64,000 nt of DNA from Nocardiopsis endophytica (GTDB lineage: Bacteria; Actinomycetota; Actinomycetes; Streptosporangiales; Streptosporangiaceae), in contig NZ_JAQFWQ010000004.1 in NCBI RefSeq assembly GCF_027706725.1, forward strand, positions 1 through 64,000. The letters are read 5' to 3'. Below are positions 17,532 through 32,316 of the stretch, piece by piece. Each line of letters opens with the position of its first letter. The stretch's first letter is position 1. The notes under the pieces are model-generated. The model was not told where the DNA came from. It made no database searches and saw only the letters and a list, made by a program, of their open reading frames with translations. The position numbers were made by a program, and so were the translations under genes.

Positions 17532-17593
17532 GATGATCTCGGGAGAACGGACGCTACAACCGCGCCGGTAGCGTCGTTCCCCCCGAGATCAAC
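17532..17593. repeat. 62-bp palindromic element, copy 1
   Basis: Begins GATGATCTCGGG and ends CCCGAGATCAAC. Inside, GGACGCTAC and GTAGCGTCG form the inner stem around a CGCGCC core. It has the same length and tips as the elements at 17623, 28397 and 29651, so these form one family. Confidence 0.85.
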
Positions 17594-17622
17594 GGGGGGC
17601 GGTGGTGCGGGGGTGCGCTGTT

Positions 17623-17684
17623 GTTGATCTCGGGGAAGCTGGGGTTATCGTGTCCGGTTTAACCCCGAGTTACCCGAGATCAAC
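17623..17684. repeat. 62-bp palindromic element, copy 2
   Basis: GTTGATCTCGGG and CCCGAGATCAAC tips with a different inner stem (GGGGTTA / TAACCCC), a compensated change. The TGA stop codon of the DsbA-like gene (minus strand, 17680-17682) lies inside the right tip, so the element abuts and defines the 3' end of that gene. Confidence 0.88.
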
Positions 17685-22688: not shown

Positions 22689-25600
22689 ATGGACCTGCCC
22701 ACGTACACCAACATCTGGCGTATCGAGAAGCGGCTGTACAAGCTGTACGACTTCCGGCTGCCGCAGCCCCTCTCGGTCGTCACGCTGGGTGTGTTCCTGG
22801 GCGTCCTCGCCGTGTGGACCCTCCTGATGAGCCTGCTGAACGTCCCGCTGAGGACGCCCTGGCACGTGCTGTGGATCGTGCCGCCCCTCATCATCACCTT
22901 CCTGGCCACCCGGCCGGTGATCGAGGGGAAGCGGCTCACCGAGCTGCTGCTGTCGCAGATCCGCTTCCTGGCCGAGGCCCGGGTCTACACCCGGCTCGCC
23001 CCCGAGCACGAGCCGGCCGAGGTCCGGGTCGAGGTGCGCGTGTGGCACCGCGACCCGGACCTCCCGCTGCCGGACGTCTCCAAGTCCCGCAAGGCGAAGG
23101 GCGCCGCGAAGCGGCGCGGAGGGCTGCGCGAACCGGCCGTCGGCGCCGCCGGGCCCGAGCCGCTGAGGCTGGCACCGGCCCCTGAGGAGGCCGAGGTCAC
23201 CGGGCTCCCGGCCCAGACGGTGCAGGAGGAGGCGCCGGGCGAACGCGTGGCGGCGGTGGCCGCCCCGGAGAGGTCCCGGGGCAAACGCGCGCCCGAGCCG
23301 CTCAATCTCGACCGCGACAGGCCCGCCCCCGAGCCCCTCTCCTGGGCCGCCTCCGACGCCGTCCGTCCAACCGTTCGTCCGACCGCCCGTCCGCCGGAGC
23401 CCGAGGAGGAGCCGCAGGAGGCGCTGCACAAGGCACCGCACCAGGCGCCGCACGAGGCTCCTGTGCCGGAATCGGGCGAAGAGCCCGCCGAGGTTCCTAC
23501 CGCCCGCGTGCCGGACCGCCCCAAGGGAAGGCCCGAGCGCGAGGCCGGAGCGGCGCGCGCCGCGGAGCCCGGCGTCGTCGACGAGGCCCCCGAGCCCGAA
23601 CCGCTCCCCGAGGCGCCCGAGCCCGAGCCCCTGCCGGCCGAGCCGGTGCGCTCCCAGCCGCCGAGGCTCGCCTTCCCCGAGCCCGACCGCGTCGAGCCCG
23701 CCGCCGCCCCCGCCCGCACCCGTGACCGCGCCCGTGACCGCGCGACCGCCGCGAGCGCCGGACCGGCGCCGGCCCCCAAGCGCGGACTCGGCGTCAAGGT
23801 GCTGAACTACTTCGGGTTCGCGCTGAACAAGGCGCAGCCGCAGGAGCCCCGGGAGGCGTCCGAGGACGCCTTCGAGCAGGAGGCCGAGGGCTCGCTCACC
23901 CGGCCCACCTCCCTGGAGCGGGGGGAGGCGGCGGACCGCGCCCGCGAGCGCGACGAACTGCGCCGGGAGAACGAGGAGTGGCTCAACGCCTACCGCTCCT
24001 CGGGCGCTTCGGCGGCCGACCCGGAGGAGCAGTTCGACGAGGTCTATGACCCGGGCGGCAGGGAGAACGCCGCGGCCGCCGGGGAGGCCGGGAACAGGCC
24101 CGACAAGCAGGCCCGCCGCCGCGCCGAGGAGATGATGGCGGCACCGGCGCCTGAGGAGCCGCACGCCGCCCCGCCCGTGGACGAGGGCGTTCGCGTGATC
24201 GAGCCCGCCCCTGGGACGGCCGAAGAGGCGGTGTCGGCCGAAGGCGTGGCCGACCTCCCGGTCGAGCGCGACGAGAGCGCCCACCGGCGCCTGCGGGGCC
24301 GGATCCAGGGCAAGCAGGTGGAGCGCCGCCTCGCGCGTGAGCGTGAGCGCGTGGAGCCCCTGCTGCCCCGGCTGCAGGCGCAGGCGACCGGCGCCCCCGC
24401 GACGCCGGAGGAGGCCGCCCAGCAGGCGGTCGGCGAGACGGACGAGGAGCGCGGCCGCCGCCCGCACGCGGCGCCGTGGGAGCTGCCGGGGCACGGCGGC
24501 CAGAAGCGCGCTGAGGACCGTACCCGGGACGGCGCCGAGGCCGCCCCGCAGGCGGAATCGGCGGCGCAGGCCGAGGCGGCACCGCAGAAGGGGGAAGCGT
24601 CGCAGAAGGGGGCGGCGAGCGCCAAGAGCGCTCAGGAGGAGCGCCTGGAGGTGCTCGACCGCCACCTGGAGCGCCTGGAGGAACAGGAGCGTGCGGCGGA
24701 CCCCGTTCCGCCGCAGCCCCGCTTCGCCGAGTCCGAGGACATCGAGCGCACCAAGCGCCGTCGTGAGGGCTGGTTCACCGAGGAGCGCGCGGAGCGCCCG
24801 GTTCAGGACGAGGTCCGCAAGGCCGAGGCGCCGACCGAGCCGGTTCCCGCCGAGCCGGTCTCCGAGGCCGCCGCCGCGGAGTCGGCTGAGTCGGCCCCTG
24901 CCGAGGCGGGAGTCCCGGAGGCACCGTCACCGGAGGCGGGCCCGAAGAAGTCGCACAAGCCCGGACTTCAGCTCGACCACGGCACGGGCGAGCACGAGAG
25001 CTTCACCGCGACGGCGGAGGGGCCGCGCGACGCGGAGGAGTCGGCGAAGCCGGTCCGCGACGCCGCGTCGGAGCCGGTCCCGAACGCCACGCCGAAGCCG
25101 GCCACCGAGCTCGACCACGGGACCGGTGAGCACGAGAGCTACGCCGCCACCGCCGGGGCCGACGACGCCTCGCCTGAGGCGGCCTTCGATGCCGCCCCCG
25201 AGGCGGCTGCGGCCGGTACCCGCGCCGAGGCTCCGTCCAAGCCCGGTACCGAGCTGGACCACGGCACGGGGGAGCACGAGAGCTACGCGGCCACCGCCGG
25301 GCCGTCCGTCGACGAGCATGGCGCCAAGGGGGCCCGGTCGTCCGATCGGTCGTCCGAGCCGCCCCGGCCTTCGGCGGAGGAGCACGCGCCCACGGACGCG
25401 GCGACGGACGCGGCCACCGAGCAGGAGCCGAAGGCCGCCTCCGAGGACGACGCCGACGCCCGCCCCGAGCAGGGGGAGGAAGCGGCGCCGGAGCCGTCGA
25501 AGCCCGTGATGCAGCTCGACCACGGCACCGGCGAACACGAGAGCTACGGCTACGCGGCGGCGCCCCCTTGGCCGGGCGTCGCGGACCGGTCCGAAGCCTC

Positions 25601-28367
25601 CGCCGCGCACGCGTCGGAGCACGGGCACGACAGTGTGGTGTTTGTGGACACCGGGTCGAGCGAAGCCGAAGCGGGTGCGCCCGAGGAGCGTGCCGCCTCC
25701 ACGGCACCATCGACGCCGTCCGCATCCTCCGCGCCCTCAACACCGTCCGCGCAGTCCGAGGGACGGCCTTCCGATGAGTCCACGGCCCAGGAGGGCGTGG
25801 CCACGGCTTCCGAGGCGCCGGAGTCTTCGGACGGCCAGGCAGCGCAGGCCGCCGAAGGCGGTCGGTCCGGAGCCGGGGCCGGGGCAGCGGAGGCACCTGT
25901 CGGCGAAGCTGCGGTGTTCGAGGCGTCGGAGCGCGCCGAAAGCCCGGCTGCCCGGGCCGCGGAAAGCGGTCGGCCCGAGGCCGGGTCCGGGGCAACAGAC
26001 GACAGGGTTCGGGACCTGCCGGAGTCGGCCGGTGGGCACGCGGCGGCGAACGCCCCAGCCGATGGGGCCGCAACTTCTCAGCCGTCGGAGTCTTCGGAGG
26101 GCCAGGCCGCACAGGCCGCCGAGGACGGTCAGTCCGGAGCGGAGTCCAAGGCAGGCTCCCCGGAGGAGGACAGCAAGGCGGGGGACCTGCCGGAGTCGGC
26201 CGCCGCCCGCCCGGTGGCGGACGCCTCCGTCGGCGGGGCCGCGGCTTCCGGGGCCTTGGATTCCGCCGATGGCTCAGACGCGCACGCTGCCGGTGCTGTC
26301 GGAGCCGGTACGCCCAGTGCCGAGCCCGAGGCACCCGGCACACCCAAGGCATCCGAGGAACAGGACGGCGAGGTTCGGAGCCTCGCGGAGTCGGCGGGTG
26401 CCCGCTCGGCGCCGGACGCCCGCGAAGCGGACGTTCCCGTCGACGAAGCCAACGCCGACGAAGCCACCGCAGACGAAGCCGCCGCCGAGGATCAGGCATC
26501 GTCGGCCGCCGACGCGACCGGCGAGTCGAACTCCGACGGCGCGGATGCGGCTCCGGCCGTTTCGCACGGTGCCGTCTCCGAAACAGCGACCGCCGTCGGC
26601 TCCGACAGAGCAGAACCGGCAGAGGCGGGCAAGAACGAGGACGGCGTAGCCGAGGCTCCGGCCCCGAAGGCCGCCGAGAGCCCCGAACCCGCGAAGCCGA
26701 CCCCGGCCCCGTCCCCGGCCCCGCCCTCTCCGGCGCCCGTGAAGCCCGTCACCGAGCTGGACCACGGCACCGGCGAGCACGAGAGCTACGCCGCCACCGC
26801 CCGGCCGGACGAGGAACCGCACCGCGCCACCGACGACGACCTGACCGCCGCGGAGGAGGCCGCGCTCCGCGCGCGCCAGACGGCGTCCCGCCGCCCCGCT
26901 CAGGAGTCGGCCGCGCGCGCGGAGTCCTCCCCGTCCTCCCGGCGCTCCCCGTCCCCCGAGTCCAACGACATTCTTGAACGGTCGCGGCGGCTCTCGCGCT
27001 CCATGCGCAGCAACCCGACGGGCTCCCAGCGCGCGGTGCCCCACGAGCCCAAGCACACCTCCCGAGGCACCGACCGGGACACCGGCCGGAGCACCGACTC
27101 CCGGGCCGCCGACCCGGCGGAGAGCCCCGCCGAGCGCTCCGCTGAGCACTCCGCCGGGCGCTCCGCCGAGACCCGCCAGGCCCCTGAGTCAGGCACGGCA
27201 CAGCCCGGCGACGGCGTCTTCAGCAAGGTCGCCGAGAACGCCCGCCGCCTCAACAACCTCTTCGGCCAGGACGGCGACCGCGGCAAGGGCGCCTCCGAGC
27301 CCGGAACCGGCTCCGGCGAGGTCGTCGAACTCGCCCCCGACGGCTCCGGGACCGGCACCGCCTCCGACCCCGACTCCGACGACAAGCCCGAGCTCCAGCT
27401 CGACCACGGCACCGGCGAGCAGCGGCGTCTCAGCCCCGCCGACCGGGCCCGCGCCGCCGCCGAGGCGGCCGGGACCGACACCGGCGCCACCCGTGGCTGG
27501 CGGCGCCTGGCCCGCGTCGTCACCGGCGGCTCCAACGCGCCCAAGCACGAGCTGCCCGCCGGGGACGTCGCCCGCCTCCGCATGGACATCGGCGGCCCGC
27601 GCAGCGTGGTCGTGCTCGGCTGCACCGGCGGCGCCGGGCAGACGATCACCTCGCTCATGCTCGGCCACACCCTGGCGTCCTACCGGGACGAGCGGATCGT
27701 CGCCGTCGACGTGAACCCGGGCGTCAACGGCCTGTCGCGCAGGATCAGCAGCGAGACCCCGGAGACGCTCACCTCCCTGCTCGCCAACGCCGAATCGGTC
27801 GACGGGTACGCGGACATGCGCCGGTACACCACCCAGACCGGCACCGGCCTGGAGGTCGTCTCCACCCTCGACGACCCCTACGTCCAGACCCTCGACGACC
27901 GCGACTACGCGGGCCTGGCCGAGCTGCTCTCGGCCCACTACGAGGTGGCCCTGCTCGACCCGGCCGCCACCGGGGTGGCGCGCGCGCTGCCCACCGCCGA
28001 CGGGCTGGTCCTGGTGGCCCCGGCGAGCGCGGACGCCGCGCGCTCGGTCGCCATGACCTTCGAATGGCTGGACGGGCACGGGTACGCGGCGCTGCGGTCC
28101 CGCTCGGTCGTGGTCATCAACGGGGTCAGCAAGCGCAGCCTCGGCGACGTCGACGAGGCCGAGCAGGTGGCCCGCGGGCGCTGCCGCGCCATCGTGCGCG
28201 TCCCCTGGGACGACCACATCGCCCAGGGCAGGCTCGGGGACACCGGGAACCTGCGCTCCAGCACCCGGCGCGCCCACGCGGCGCTCGGCGGGGTGCTGAT
28301 GCACGCCGTGTCCCCGGCGGGGCAGCAGCCGCCGAACAACCGCGCCCCGTCGGAGGCCCGCCGATGA
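22689..28367 (+). CDS. TcpE / disordered linker / ParA-like fusion protein
   Basis: Very large protein, 1892 aa, with AGGAGG upstream. Residues 1-125 match the TcpE/PrgI type: YTNIWRIEKRLYKLYDFRLP, then two TM helices (about 33-70). Residues 130-1550 are Ala/Glu/Pro/Ser-rich, presumably disordered, with six copies of the motif LDHGTGEHES (starts at residues 762, 808, 856, 943, 1357; a degenerate one at 1571). The last 260 residues are a ParA/MinD-type domain: SVVVLGCTGGAGQT at about 1639-1652, IVAVDVNPG, and EVALLDPAATG. The P-loop lacks its Lys (GGAGQT for GKGGVGKT), so ATP use is doubtful. A cytoplasmic scaffold or receptor role in secretion is likely. Confidence 0.8.
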   Translation: MDLPTYTNIWRIEKRLYKLYDFRLPQPLSVVTLGVFLGVLAVWTLLMSLLNVPLRTPWHVLWIVPPLIITFLATRPVIEGKRLTELLLSQIRFLAEARVYTRLAPEHEPAEVRVEVRVWHRDPDLPLPDVSKSRKAKGAAKRRGGLREPAVGAAGPEPLRLAPAPEEAEVTGLPAQTVQEEAPGERVAAVAAPERSRGKRAPEPLNLDRDRPAPEPLSWAASDAVRPTVRPTARPPEPEEEPQEALHKAPHQAPHEAPVPESGEEPAEVPTARVPDRPKGRPEREAGAARAAEPGVVDEAPEPEPLPEAPEPEPLPAEPVRSQPPRLAFPEPDRVEPAAAPARTRDRARDRATAASAGPAPAPKRGLGVKVLNYFGFALNKAQPQEPREASEDAFEQEAEGSLTRPTSLERGEAADRARERDELRRENEEWLNAYRSSGASAADPEEQFDEVYDPGGRENAAAAGEAGNRPDKQARRRAEEMMAAPAPEEPHAAPPVDEGVRVIEPAPGTAEEAVSAEGVADLPVERDESAHRRLRGRIQGKQVERRLARERERVEPLLPRLQAQATGAPATPEEAAQQAVGETDEERGRRPHAAPWELPGHGGQKRAEDRTRDGAEAAPQAESAAQAEAAPQKGEASQKGAASAKSAQEERLEVLDRHLERLEEQERAADPVPPQPRFAESEDIERTKRRREGWFTEERAERPVQDEVRKAEAPTEPVPAEPVSEAAAAESAESAPAEAGVPEAPSPEAGPKKSHKPGLQLDHGTGEHESFTATAEGPRDAEESAKPVRDAASEPVPNATPKPATELDHGTGEHESYAATAGADDASPEAAFDAAPEAAAAGTRAEAPSKPGTELDHGTGEHESYAATAGPSVDEHGAKGARSSDRSSEPPRPSAEEHAPTDAATDAATEQEPKAASEDDADARPEQGEEAAPEPSKPVMQLDHGTGEHESYGYAAAPPWPGVADRSEASAAHASEHGHDSVVFVDTGSSEAEAGAPEERAASTAPSTPSASSAPSTPSAQSEGRPSDESTAQEGVATASEAPESSDGQAAQAAEGGRSGAGAGAAEAPVGEAAVFEASERAESPAARAAESGRPEAGSGATDDRVRDLPESAGGHAAANAPADGAATSQPSESSEGQAAQAAEDGQSGAESKAGSPEEDSKAGDLPESAAARPVADASVGGAAASGALDSADGSDAHAAGAVGAGTPSAEPEAPGTPKASEEQDGEVRSLAESAGARSAPDAREADVPVDEANADEATADEAAAEDQASSAADATGESNSDGADAAPAVSHGAVSETATAVGSDRAEPAEAGKNEDGVAEAPAPKAAESPEPAKPTPAPSPAPPSPAPVKPVTELDHGTGEHESYAATARPDEEPHRATDDDLTAAEEAALRARQTASRRPAQESAARAESSPSSRRSPSPESNDILERSRRLSRSMRSNPTGSQRAVPHEPKHTSRGTDRDTGRSTDSRAADPAESPAERSAEHSAGRSAETRQAPESGTAQPGDGVFSKVAENARRLNNLFGQDGDRGKGASEPGTGSGEVVELAPDGSGTGTASDPDSDDKPELQLDHGTGEQRRLSPADRARAAAEAAGTDTGATRGWRRLARVVTGGSNAPKHELPAGDVARLRMDIGGPRSVVVLGCTGGAGQTITSLMLGHTLASYRDERIVAVDVNPGVNGLSRRISSETPETLTSLLANAESVDGYADMRRYTTQTGTGLEVVSTLDDPYVQTLDDRDYAGLAELLSAHYEVALLDPAATGVARALPTADGLVLVAPASADAARSVAMTFEWLDGHGYAALRSRSVVVINGVSKRSLGDVDEAEQVARGRCRAIVRVPWDDHIAQGRLGDTGNLRSSTRRAHAALGGVLMHAVSPAGQQPPNNRAPSEARR

Positions 28368-28396: not shown

Positions 28397-28458
28397 GTTG
28401 ATCTCGGGAAAAACGCCCCTAAAACCGCACTTGTAGCGTCGTTTCTCCCGAGATCAAC
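28397..28458. repeat. 62-bp palindromic element, copy 3 (left end of cassette)
   Basis: GTTGATCTCGGGAAAAACG tip, inner AACGCCCCTAAAACCGC, right tip CCCGAGATCAAC. It starts 30 bp after the stop of the fusion gene. Near-perfect inverted match to the element at 29651-29712. Confidence 0.9.
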
Positions 28459-28465
28459 ATGGGGG

Positions 28466-29584
28466 TTAGTACGTGTAGGGGAGTCGGCGCTCAGCGGCAC
28501 GGCGGGGTGGCGAGGCGCTCCCAGCCGCCTCGCGAATATGGCGCAGGCGTTCAGCGGTCTCGCGTTGGAGGCGCGCCGCGTGCCGAGGGTGATGGTCGCT
28601 GACCACGGCCCCTCGGAGGCGCAGCTGGGTCTTCACGTCGGCTATCGCCGATGGCAGCACGGTGGGACGGGTCTTCGAGGTCACGATGTAGAGCCGGACG
28701 CCTTGGTCCCGGATGAGCTGCCAGCGCTCGACGTCCTCGTGTCTGCGTTCCTTGTGCACGTCGCCGTCGTATTCGATGGCCACGAGGGTTCTCCCTTCAT
28801 CGAACGCGTAGCACAGGTCCAACCGCGCGCGTCGCGTCCCGCCCGTGCCAATGGCGATCTCGTACTGCAGCTCCGGCACGGGGAGCCCCGCTCCGACCAG
28901 GTCCATCAGCAAGCGCGACTCCTCTGGCGAGTCCACTTCCGGGTGGGCGAACTCGGCAGCGGCGGCCGCCCTCCGAACGCCGCGCCAGCGGTAGAAACGT
29001 TCACGCGCGACATAGGCACGAAATTCCTCGGGGCTGAACGGCGCTCCGCGGGTCCGTCGTCCTTCCCGGCCGACCGAGAGCATGGCGTTCAGCGCCGCCA
29101 CGTTCTCGCGCAGGTCACCGGGGCTGGGTTCCCACCGGTCGGGCGCTTTCAGTCTCGACAGATCGAAAGCGGTGCGCAGAGGTGCGGTTGCGGGGATACC
29201 GAATACCAGGGTGGTGTCCTCGCCAAGCAGCTCGGCGTGGGCGACCCTCACAGGAAGGTCGCGGATGCGGATCGGATGCACCTGGGCATCGCGGGGTGCG
29301 ATTACGGCAACGGGGTCGCCGTCGCGCCGGTAGTCGGCACCGTGAAGCGCGGCGGCGGCAGAGCCTCCGACCACGGCGCCCGGAGGCAACACCAGCGCGA
29401 GTGCGCGAAGCGCTGTGCGCAGGGATTCCGGCTGAGTGGACGCATGTGTGTAGATGCCGCTTCCCATTCGCGTCCAGCAAGGGGAACGAAGGCGACGAGC
29501 GGTGATGAGCCCCCTGTCGATCGCTTCGCGTGCGCGGAAGGGGCCGTTGAGCAAGGCGGGAGGCGCGTCAGGGTGTCTGGGCAT
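28466..29584 (-). CDS. AbiEi-like / DUF559 endonuclease-fold protein
   Basis: A 372-aa protein. The N-terminal part (EAIDRGLITARRLRSPCWTR, then GGSAAAALHGADY) has the winged-helix and nucleotidyl-transferase-antitoxin-like look of AbiEi. The C-terminal 110 residues are of the Vsr/DUF559 restriction-like fold: RARLDLCYAFDEGRTLVAIEYDGDVHK carries the D...E-x-D-G pattern (in two parts: LDLCYAF and VAIEYDG), followed by HEDVERWQLIRDQGVRLYIV. Such genes are frequent solitary cargo in actinobacteria; a role in defence or mobile-element upkeep is suspected, not shown. It opposes the host operon and lies between inverted repeats. A relative is at 59253. Confidence 0.72.
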   Translation of the reverse strand: MPRHPDAPPALLNGPFRAREAIDRGLITARRLRSPCWTRMGSGIYTHASTQPESLRTALRALALVLPPGAVVGGSAAAALHGADYRRDGDPVAVIAPRDAQVHPIRIRDLPVRVAHAELLGEDTTLVFGIPATAPLRTAFDLSRLKAPDRWEPSPGDLRENVAALNAMLSVGREGRRTRGAPFSPEEFRAYVARERFYRWRGVRRAAAAAEFAHPEVDSPEESRLLMDLVGAGLPVPELQYEIAIGTGGTRRARLDLCYAFDEGRTLVAIEYDGDVHKERRHEDVERWQLIRDQGVRLYIVTSKTRPTVLPSAIADVKTQLRLRGAVVSDHHPRHAARLQRETAERLRHIREAAGSASPPRRAAERRLPYTY

Positions 29585-29650
29585 GTGAACACCCTCCGCC
29601 CTCTACGCTCCGCATGGGCGCTATCCACAGCCCCAACCACCCTCCTGCTC

Positions 29651-29712
29651 GTTGATCTCGGGAAAAACGACGCTACAAGCGCGGTTTTAGGGGCGTTTTT
29701 CCCGAGATCAAC
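29651..29712. repeat. 62-bp palindromic element, copy 4 (right end of cassette)
   Basis: GTTGATCTCGGGAAAAACG tip and CGTTTTTCCCGAGATCAAC tip. Compared in reverse complement with copy 3 there are two mismatches in 62. It ends 45 bp before the virB4 start. Confidence 0.9.
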
Positions 29713-29757: not shown

Positions 29758-32316
29758 ATGAACGGCAGCAGGGGCGGCAGCCGCCTCGCGGTCCGGTACT
29801 TCGACGACCGCGTCCTGCTCAGCGACGCCGAGGCGTGGGCCTACTTCCGCCTCCCGACGGTCTCCTACGAGTTCACCACGCCGGAGGAGCGCGAGGCCCT
29901 CGCCAACAACATCACCATCGCCCTCGCCGCGATCCGGATGGACGACGCGGAGGTGCACCTGCGCATCGCGCACCGCACCTACCCCGCGGCCCAGTGGGCG
30001 ACCCGCCTGGACGGCACCTCCGACTCCGGCGCCGGGTGGTACGAGTACCTCGACGAGATGTACCGCCACGTGTGGGCCAAGGACTTCTGGACCAAGGAGG
30101 TCTACCTGGGCGTGCGCCTGGGCCTGCGGGGCGGCGTCCGCGGCCAGCTCTCCCAGGGGATGTTCGCGCAGCTGGTCGGGGCCTACCAGCGCTCGGAGCA
30201 GGCGCTCGGCATCGAGGACCCGGCGATCGACGCCAAGGAGATCGCGCGCTGGACCGAGCAGTCCGAACGCCTGGGGCGCGCGCTGTCGGCCAGCTCCCTG
30301 CACGCCAAGCACGCGACCGCGAACCAGATCGCCTGGCTCTTCAGGCACGCCGTCACCGGGACCGTAGAGGAGCCCCGGCCGTCGGCGGCGGGGCGGCGCA
30401 CGTGGGGGCGCGGCGAGATCGAGCAGCTGGTGGAGGGCGTCATCCACAACGGGCGCTCCATGCTGCGCCTGGAGCAGAACATCGGGGACACCTACGTCGC
30501 CTACCTGTCGTTCTCCCGGTTCCCCGACCTCATGCCCTTCCCGGAGGGCGAACCGTGGATGCACTACGCGGACGCGCTCCCGTTCCCGGTCGAGATCAGC
30601 TCCCGGATGAAGCTGATCCCGCCCGCCAAGGCGAGCAAGGACGTCAGCCGCAAGCTCGCCCACGCGCGCGACATGGACGCCCACATCCGCGAGGCGGGGG
30701 CGGACATGCCGATCGCCCTCGCCGAGCAGATCGACGCCGCCCGGATGCTGGAGCACGGCATCACCAAGGAGCGGCTGCCGTTCGTGTACGGGTGGCACCG
30801 GCTGATGGTGTCGGCGCCGACCGAGGAGCTGCTGGTGCAGCGCATCGAGGCGGTCGTCGAGCACTACCGGGACATCGGCATCGACGTGGTGAACTCGACC
30901 GGTGACCAGCTCTCGCTGTTCAACGAGTCGCTGCCGGGGGATCGGATCCGCCTCAGCGCCTACGCCCAGCGCCAGCCCCTGCGGACCATCGCCGGGGGCA
31001 TGCCGACCGCCACCGTCGACCTGGGCGACCGCCGCGACCCCAGCCAGGGGGGCGGGGGATGGACCGGCCCCTACATCGGCGAGACGCTGGGGCGGGCCCG
31101 GTCCATCGTGCACTTCGACCCGATGGTGGCGGCGGCGCGCAACCGGCCCACCGCCATCGCCATCACCGGCGAGCCGGGCGGCGGCAAGACGACGCTCGCG
31201 CTGCTTCTCATCTACCAGCTGGCGCTGCGCGGGGTGACCGTCGCGGCGATCGACCCCAAGGGCGACGCGGAGTCGCTGGTGCGGCTGCTCCAGCGGCGGG
31301 GGCGCAAGGCGCGCATCATGTCCCTGGAGTCGGCGCAGCCCGGGCTGCTGGACCCGTTCGCGTTCGGGGACGACCTGCCGGCCAAGAAGACCATGGCGAC
31401 CGAGACGCTGAGGCTGCTGCTGCCCCGCATGAGCGAGGAGCGCGAGTCCGCCATGATCCAGGCGGTGGCCGCCGTCGCCAACCAGCCCGAGCCGAGCCTG
31501 GCGAAGGTCGTGCAGTACCTGGAGCGGTCGCACGACCCGGCGTCGCGCAACCTGGGCGCGGTGCTGCAGTCCATGTCGGAGATGCGGCTGGCGAACCTGT
31601 GCTTCTCGCCCCAGGGGGACGCGCAGGTGGACTCGGAGGGGTGGACGACGGTCTTCACCCTCGGGGGCCTGACGCTGCCCGACTCGACCATCCAGCGCGA
31701 GGACTACTCCTACGAGCAGCGGTTGAGCGTCGCGCTGCTGTACCTGGTGAGCCAGTTCGCCCGTGAGCTGATGAACGGGCTCGACCGGCACCTCCCCAAG
31801 GCGATCTTCCTGGACGAGGCGTGGGCGGTGACCTCCACCCCCGAGGGCGCCAAGCTGGTGCCCGAGGTGAGCCGCATGGGCCGCTCGCGCAACACCGCGC
31901 TGATCCTCGTCAGCCAGAACGCCGGCGACCTGCTGAACGAGCAGGTGACCAACTGTCTGTCCAGTGTGTTCGCGTTCCGTTCGAGTGAGCGGTACGAGGT
32001 GGAGAGCGTCATGTCGCTCCTCGGGGTGGAGTCCGAGGAGGAGCACATGGGGATGCTCAGGAACCTCGGCAACGGTGAATGCATCTTCCGCGACCTGGAC
32101 GGACGGGCGGGGCGCATCGCCGTGGACCTGGTGTCGGAGGAGCTGCTGCGGTGGCTGGACACCAACCCGACACGGCAGCACCCGGACGAGGAGGACACCG
32201 AGGTCTTCGAGGGTGCGGAGGCCTTGGTGGGCACGGGTGGCATGGGCGGTACCGGCGGTATGGGTGGTACCGGCGGTATGGGCGGCACCGGCAGGGGCAA
32301 CGGGCAGGAACGGTGA
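29758..32316 (+). CDS. VirB4-like secretion ATPase
   Basis: Motor ATPase of type IV secretion, 852 aa. The N-terminal half has the VirB4/TraC-like helical domain. Walker A is ITGEPGGGKTT (P-loop at 471-479) and Walker B AIFLDEAW (682-689), followed by the motor motif SRMGRSRNTALILVSQNAGD. The C-terminus is an acidic tail and three 6-residue GTGGMG repeats (825-842). The ATG at 29758 follows GGGAGGGG. Position between the TcpE fusion and the VirB6-like gene, with length typical for VirB4, makes the call firm; it should be peripheral on the cytoplasmic side. Confidence 0.9.
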   Translation: MNGSRGGSRLAVRYFDDRVLLSDAEAWAYFRLPTVSYEFTTPEEREALANNITIALAAIRMDDAEVHLRIAHRTYPAAQWATRLDGTSDSGAGWYEYLDEMYRHVWAKDFWTKEVYLGVRLGLRGGVRGQLSQGMFAQLVGAYQRSEQALGIEDPAIDAKEIARWTEQSERLGRALSASSLHAKHATANQIAWLFRHAVTGTVEEPRPSAAGRRTWGRGEIEQLVEGVIHNGRSMLRLEQNIGDTYVAYLSFSRFPDLMPFPEGEPWMHYADALPFPVEISSRMKLIPPAKASKDVSRKLAHARDMDAHIREAGADMPIALAEQIDAARMLEHGITKERLPFVYGWHRLMVSAPTEELLVQRIEAVVEHYRDIGIDVVNSTGDQLSLFNESLPGDRIRLSAYAQRQPLRTIAGGMPTATVDLGDRRDPSQGGGGWTGPYIGETLGRARSIVHFDPMVAAARNRPTAIAITGEPGGGKTTLALLLIYQLALRGVTVAAIDPKGDAESLVRLLQRRGRKARIMSLESAQPGLLDPFAFGDDLPAKKTMATETLRLLLPRMSEERESAMIQAVAAVANQPEPSLAKVVQYLERSHDPASRNLGAVLQSMSEMRLANLCFSPQGDAQVDSEGWTTVFTLGGLTLPDSTIQREDYSYEQRLSVALLYLVSQFARELMNGLDRHLPKAIFLDEAWAVTSTPEGAKLVPEVSRMGRSRNTALILVSQNAGDLLNEQVTNCLSSVFAFRSSERYEVESVMSLLGVESEEEHMGMLRNLGNGECIFRDLDGRAGRIAVDLVSEELLRWLDTNPTRQHPDEEDTEVFEGAEALVGTGGMGGTGGMGGTGGMGGTGRGNGQER
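32230..32283 (+). repeat. 18-bp tandem repeat inside virB4-like gene
   Basis: Three 18-bp units of the form GGYACSGGYGGYATGGGY (32230, 32248, 32266) plus a partial fourth encode a Gly/Thr/Met tail. Units two and three differ in one base, a likely slippage-prone length polymorphism. Confidence 0.85.

Follow-up and report, generated by a model that had tools for sequence, protein, structure and literature searches.

An AbiEi-Vsr-type nuclease gene between lineage-specific, dispersed palindromes: a putative REPtron-like selfish unit of actinobacteria

The window, i.e. the whole stretch of 64,000 nucleotides that was analysed, comes from the 7.26-Mb genome of Nocardiopsis endophytica (G000). In it, a gene encoding an AbiEi-type DNA-binding region fused to a Vsr/DUF559-type nuclease domain is enclosed by two palindromes, and the whole lies between a TcpE-domain fusion gene and a VirB4-like gene (Table 1). 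Alignment of the left palindrome with the reverse complement of the right one confirms the initial annotation, in which the two had been described as inverted copies with two differences: both are 62 bp long and mismatched at positions 33 and 49 only. Their relative orientation in the window is inverted; however, each element is an imperfect hairpin on its own, and the pair therefore looks alike whichever orientation is compared. It had also been pointed out that the gene is opposite in strand to the operon and parts genes expected to be adjacent. Indeed, the TcpE-fusion and VirB4-like genes adjoin in relatives that lack the nuclease gene. The ATG at 28364, previously taken for the old start of the next gene, does not have that role, since in three of three relatives with an empty site it is out of frame and precedes the true start by 116, 116 and 80 nt. 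The GC3 of the nuclease gene is 0.77, compared to 0.97 and 0.91 for its two neighbours; by this measure, the nuclease cassette is compositionally foreign.

Table 1. Positions of the cassette, its parts, the neighbouring genes and the solo palindromes in the window.
Feature	Position	Strand	Remarks
Left 62-bp palindrome, subtype A	28397..28458	+	Directly past the stop codon of the nuclease gene
Right 62-bp palindrome, subtype A	29651..29712	-	Upstream of the nuclease gene; inverted copy of the left palindrome, two mismatches
AbiEi-type DNA-binding region and Vsr/DUF559-type nuclease fusion gene	28466..29584	-	372 aa
Nuclease domain	28610..28936	-	Residues 217-325; invariant E222, D256, E271, D273, H277
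AbiEi-like region	28943..29584	-	Residues 1-214
TcpE-domain fusion gene	22689..28367	+	Left neighbour; insertion-site context
VirB4-like AAA_10 gene	29758..32316	+	Right neighbour; insertion-site context
Solo palindrome, subtype A	17532..17593	+	
Solo palindrome, subtype G	17623..17684	+	

The AlphaFold model of the protein has a mean pLDDT of 88 and a pTM of 0.85. The best structural match for its nuclease domain (residues 219-322) is the homing-endonuclease domain of I-Bth0305I (3r3p, Z 11.0), and the domain also matches Vsr (1cw0, Z 8.1). S219, E222, D256, E271, Y272, D273, G274 and H277 are invariant in 35 homologues. Both the fold and the invariant acidic and histidine residues are those of a Vsr/EDxHD-type PD-(D/E)XK nuclease. 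The N-terminal region (residues 4-214) matches the AbiEi antitoxin 6y8q (Z 9.1 over 179 residues, rmsd 5.0) and shows, in the predicted model, the two-domain AbiEi structure. In Pfam, AbiEi_1 falls just under the cut-off for the window protein, while MTES_1575, DUF559 and AbiEi_1 are all found among the homologues; the same search of the enclosed gene gave no transposase domain. The protein is under purifying selection: dN/dS is 0.23-0.24 overall and lowest in the nuclease domain, at 0.17-0.19. AbiEi proteins, Rv2827c among them, bind inverted repeats and autoregulate thereby (PMC7319586), and thus recognition of the palindromes by the AbiEi region is plausible.

The chromosomal site can be followed through the relatives by its VirB4-like gene, which was found in all 37 genomes of the same family that were searched (G000 included) and in one genome of the nearest other family. 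N. halophila (G005) and N. suaedae (G002) carry the nuclease gene at the same site with palindromes on its flanks; in N. suaedae, both of these palindromes belong to subtype G. The initial annotation had proposed comparing relatives for empty sites, and both empty and solo-palindrome versions were found. In G001, whose VirB4-like gene is 98% identical, the site holds one solo palindrome and no nuclease gene; in G003 and G004, it holds neither palindrome nor gene; and in G014 and G025, it holds solo palindromes of the genome's own type, with the nuclease gene elsewhere in the genome.

Far from being a terminal pair peculiar to this cassette, the two repeats belong to a family of hundreds. In G000, a 13-bp arm of the palindrome occurs 304 times and a 12-bp arm has 537 exact copies, while the reversed-pattern control gives 0 in either case, which puts the repeat far above chance. 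Intact elements have a constant length of 62 bp and two unequal halves, and they fall into two coexisting Nocardiopsis subtypes, namely: A, with an inner CGACGCTA/CGCCCCTA, and G, with an inner TCGGGGTTA. Solo copies of the two subtypes adjoin at 17532-17684 of the window, about 30 bp apart and with no gene between them, and such A/G neighbours are found again in the same genome (L163, L174). In N. suaedae, the sampled solo copies are of subtype A while the gene flanks are G, the sample having been drawn with an A-type probe. Of 36 solo copies sampled, 17 lie between convergent genes, 15 between tandem and 2 between divergent genes, 2 are at locus edges and 0 are inside an ORF. An Rfam search gave no match to a known RNA element. 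The initial annotation had named unlinked, terminator-like repeats among the findings that would count against its reading. There are indeed hundreds of copies, mostly unlinked and solo near gene 3′ ends, but the link between gene and palindrome survives.

This link is seen within the genus, where arm counts are 537, 157 and 149 in three members with the gene and 15, 6 and 5 in three without it. Among 60 relatives, 40 or more exact arms are present in 4 genomes, the same 4 that have a homologue of at least 50% identity (Fisher 2e-6, kinship uncorrected). All interspecies comparisons use one genome per species. When about 25 solo sites of G000 were set against the orthologous G001 sites, the palindrome was absent wherever alignment was possible; the short spacers at these sites are too diverged to define a target-site duplication. 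Some palindromes are split near their centre by palindromic inserts (L176:1501-1733, L178:1501-1708, L171:1444-1678), with an apparent 8-10-bp duplication by eye, e.g. GGGCCGCTCT in L178. Another palindrome family (TGATGATCTCGACAGGAGTGCTGTCA..., upstream at L005; G001, query 2650-2747) is present in G000 and at about 10 places in G001, a genome in which no gene of the nuclease family was detected.

A scan of species genomes returned 63 homologues, in Nocardiopsis, Blastococcus, Pseudonocardia, Amycolatopsis, Oerskovia, Cellulomonas, Cellulosimicrobium, Sanguibacter and others. When strict criteria are applied automatically, 27 of 82 family genes have matched palindrome pairs on their flanks, as against 1 among 207 control ORFs from these loci; the single positive control ORF is itself a family paralogue, and without it the control count is 0 of 206 (Fisher p 5e-17). 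With a looser comparison of upstream and downstream flanks, 45 of 86 family loci have a strong pair, scoring at least 45 bits. Roughly half of the loci have none; in some of these the locus lies at a contig end or the ORF is mis-extended, and in others the lack is real. The downstream palindrome usually begins no more than about 15 bp past the stop codon, and the end of the upstream one is typically at most about 100 bp from the start. The flanking copies occur in direct or inverted relative orientation, and the direct one scores higher at many homologous loci. At L050, L051, L053 and L057, which belong to other genera, family genes are flanked by inverted repeats of 70-150 bp, some of them built of several small palindromes.

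The palindrome is specific to the lineage, and in the tested hosts it is usually the one that is multicopy genome-wide. In the five genomes whose gene bears it, the Oerskovia arm GCCGAGAAGTGA has 32, 26, 13, 6 and 5 matches, compared to 0-1 in each of 13 others. An Amycolatopsis arm has 274, 175, 251 and 325 matches in four species whose gene bears that arm. It has 11 in A. decaplanina and none in A. bullii, where the genes bear other palindromes, and none in the 14 genomes outside Amycolatopsis. The third arm, TGAGTGCATGA, is less clear-cut, with top counts in C. cellulans (26) and C. funkei (13) and low counts elsewhere. Among the listed Amycolatopsis copies, the gene-flanking type is the commonest solo type. 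Palindrome similarity correlates with protein similarity (Mantel r 0.24, p 0.001), also when only different chromosomal sites are compared (r 0.15, p 0.001), and paralogues that share one genome bear different palindromes (e.g. L093/L094, L127/L130). A conserved terminal tag of the GTAG kind was sought by eye as a YYGA-like end, which fails in Amycolatopsis.

Among pairs of loci at a shared chromosomal site, the cassette has the same orientation in 70 and the opposite orientation in 24. Gene identity falls below flank identity by a mean of 1.1 points in same-orientation pairs vs. 9.9 points in inverted pairs (29 pairs, Blastococcus-type loci left out, vs. 24; p 4e-9, the pairs being non-independent). 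Same-orientation cassettes diverge about as much as their flanks and inverted ones far more, so that most inverted cassettes are alleles that were replaced rather than merely turned round. In L136/L126, L128/L126, L122/L137, L124/L138 and L137/L138, the homology between the flanks breaks off 2-4 bp outside the palindromes; in other comparisons it breaks off earlier. By these alignments, the cassette is swapped between species as a palindrome-bounded unit, in either orientation. Such swapping at fixed loci would fit a homing endonuclease, the kind of enzyme that cleaves an empty allele and is copied into it.

The palindromes are also replaced in place. Of 20 solo sites of A. azurea looked up in A. 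decaplanina, 18 could be mapped, and at 12 of these the corresponding position is occupied by a palindrome of the family, the flanks being 84-97% identical; none of the 12 is of the azurea type. Instead, 5 are of the GGCACC type, 5 of the GTCACCTACTTG type and 2 intermediate, and both arms have changed together; three A. decaplanina site assignments were made by eye from alignments. The other mapped sites hold 1 unrelated hairpin and, in 5 cases, none. The A. decaplanina gene itself (L126:4870-5925) sits between single GTCACCTACTTG-type arms, CGCAATTAGTCACCTACTTGCG upstream and CGCAAGTAGGTGACCAATTGCG downstream. It is placed as if within one palindrome and is inverted relative to four sister species. 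Syntenic regions of 220-240 kb from three Amycolatopsis species contained few mapped elements and added little. Further recurrent hairpins are seen in L259-L281: CGAAAGTGGC in 11 hairpins within 240 kb of A. azurea and CACTCACGAG in 10 hairpins within 220 kb of A. decaplanina.

The arrangement resembles the REPtron, in which a RAYT gene lies between two REP palindromes that are also dispersed, the palindrome type follows the gene lineage and the copies are mostly intergenic (PMC2817692, PMC3733652). Here, too, one single-copy gene lies between two palindromes, which flank it on both sides and are dispersed in the host as tens to hundreds of solo copies, mostly between genes and with a type matched to the gene lineage. 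The enzyme, however, does not belong to the HUH Y1 transposases; it combines a PD-(D/E)XK/Vsr-type nuclease with an AbiEi region. In addition, the hairpin element measures about 60 bp and has no GTAG or CGTC tag, the flanking copies are direct as well as inverted rather than always inverted, and the palindromes are replaced wholesale at orthologous sites. I-Bth0305I (EDxHD, Vsr-like fold) shares the nuclease fold as its closest structural match and the homing-like exchange at a fixed locus, whereas the gene described here is not intron-encoded, is tied to dispersed palindromes and has an AbiEi-type DNA-binding region. With the AbiEi antitoxins, including Rv2827c, the protein shares the N-terminal fold of a family that binds inverted repeats (PMC7319586), but it has no toxin partner, and a nuclease domain is added at its C-terminus. 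MITEs and miniature insertion sequences also place short palindromic non-coding copies beside one coding copy; here, however, there is no known transposase, and the repeats are whole hairpins either way round rather than terminal inverted repeats.

We regard it as very likely that the gene and its palindromes form one functional or selfish system, and as probable that the palindrome-gene-palindrome cassette is a selfish, REPtron-like unit with a homing-type nuclease in place of the RAYT transposase. In such a unit, the AbiEi region would recognize and bind its own palindrome, and the nuclease would break or nick the DNA there or right next to it. With another palindrome or a whole cassette as the repair template, palindromes would then be copied to new sites, existing old-type palindromes converted in place to the resident type, and the cassette swapped between strains. 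The association of gene and palindromes, its lineage specificity, the limits of the unit, the replacement in place and the selective constraint are seen directly in the sequences; the binding and the cutting are what we infer, as is the role of this protein, rather than of another enzyme, as the driver of the spread. The nuclease-driven copying step itself may or may not hold, with the balance about even; its weak point is that repair from a donor of such short homology is mechanistically unexplained. Much the same must be said of the broader proposal that an AbiEi-Vsr-type endonuclease system, widespread among actinobacteria, spreads and rewrites genome-wide palindromes in trans by homing-like conversion, independently of a tyrosine transposase: the chances of its being right are roughly equal to those of its being wrong.

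It could instead be that another enzyme, or recombination, moves the palindromes, which would then be ordinary dispersed repeats of the terminator-like or MITE kind, and that the nuclease gene is selfish in its own right, inserts at palindromes and so comes to lie between two. Such an account would suit the position of the solo palindromes near gene 3′ ends and their scarcity in divergent promoter regions, as well as G001, which holds few palindromes, one of them at this very site without the gene, and a second palindrome family for which no partner gene of the nuclease family was detected. Yet high palindrome copy number follows the presence of the gene and its cognate lineage, the flanking pair is matched and changes along with the gene, and no common transposase was found, Y1_Tnp being absent from seven hosts; we therefore consider this account unlikely. 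A RAYT was rejected as the general mobilizer on the same absence of PF01797 (Y1_Tnp) and because the enclosed gene is unrelated. G000 has a single IS200-type Y1_Tnp gene (G000:C7:85590-85952), and no listed palindrome arm is near it on that contig. A nuclease gene carried as cargo of a conventional IS/MITE family, with a DDE transposase elsewhere in the genome, would likewise give palindromic ends, solo copies and empty versions of the same site; that the same gene family bears unrelated palindromes in many lineages, with flanking copies direct or inverted, makes it very improbable.

The palindromes might also be operators, with an AbiEi-like regulator binding flanking and genome-wide terminator-like palindromes and selection, not conversion, keeping the match. 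The fairly constant place of the flanking copies near start and stop is in line with this, as is autoregulation by AbiEi and Rv2827c through inverted-repeat binding (PMC7319586). This explanation leaves unaccounted for the intact, constrained nuclease site, the hundreds of copies that are present or absent between close species, and the wholesale replacement of both arms at orthologous sites, and we hold it to be improbable. Even less can be said for a defence or AbiE toxin-antitoxin cassette, which seems the most remote of these alternatives. PADLOC AbiEi models do match 26 of 35 homologues, but the gene is not in an operon with an AbiEii nucleotidyltransferase toxin, as in AbiE type IV systems; its neighbours are the TcpE-fusion and VirB4-like genes rather than defence genes, and it has the extra nuclease domain. 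A search for plasmid carriage gave one weak match and a search for phage carriage none. Of the transposase-less selfish or defence cassette that the initial annotation had suggested, it is thus the selfish half that is well supported, by the empty and solo sites, the palindrome-bounded exchange and the foreign GC3, while the lack of an AbiEii partner, a defence neighbour or a phage homologue speaks against the other.

A selfish unit of this architecture has a known analogue. What is new is the enzyme, which is unrelated to RAYTs; in the open-access literature, we found no paper linking DUF559 or AbiEi genes to palindromic repeats. REPs of the CGTC type apparently have no dedicated transposase (PMC3733652). 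The origin of REP-like palindromes without a RAYT has been an open question, and an unrelated nuclease family is now tied to such palindromes in many actinobacterial genera, with cognate gene/palindrome pairs that are open to bench experiments. The change of palindrome type in place between Amycolatopsis species would be a striking case of concerted evolution. If the proposal is true, it would give a role to part of the abundant and poorly understood actinobacterial DUF559/AbiEi proteins, which are now annotated as antitoxin or defence proteins.
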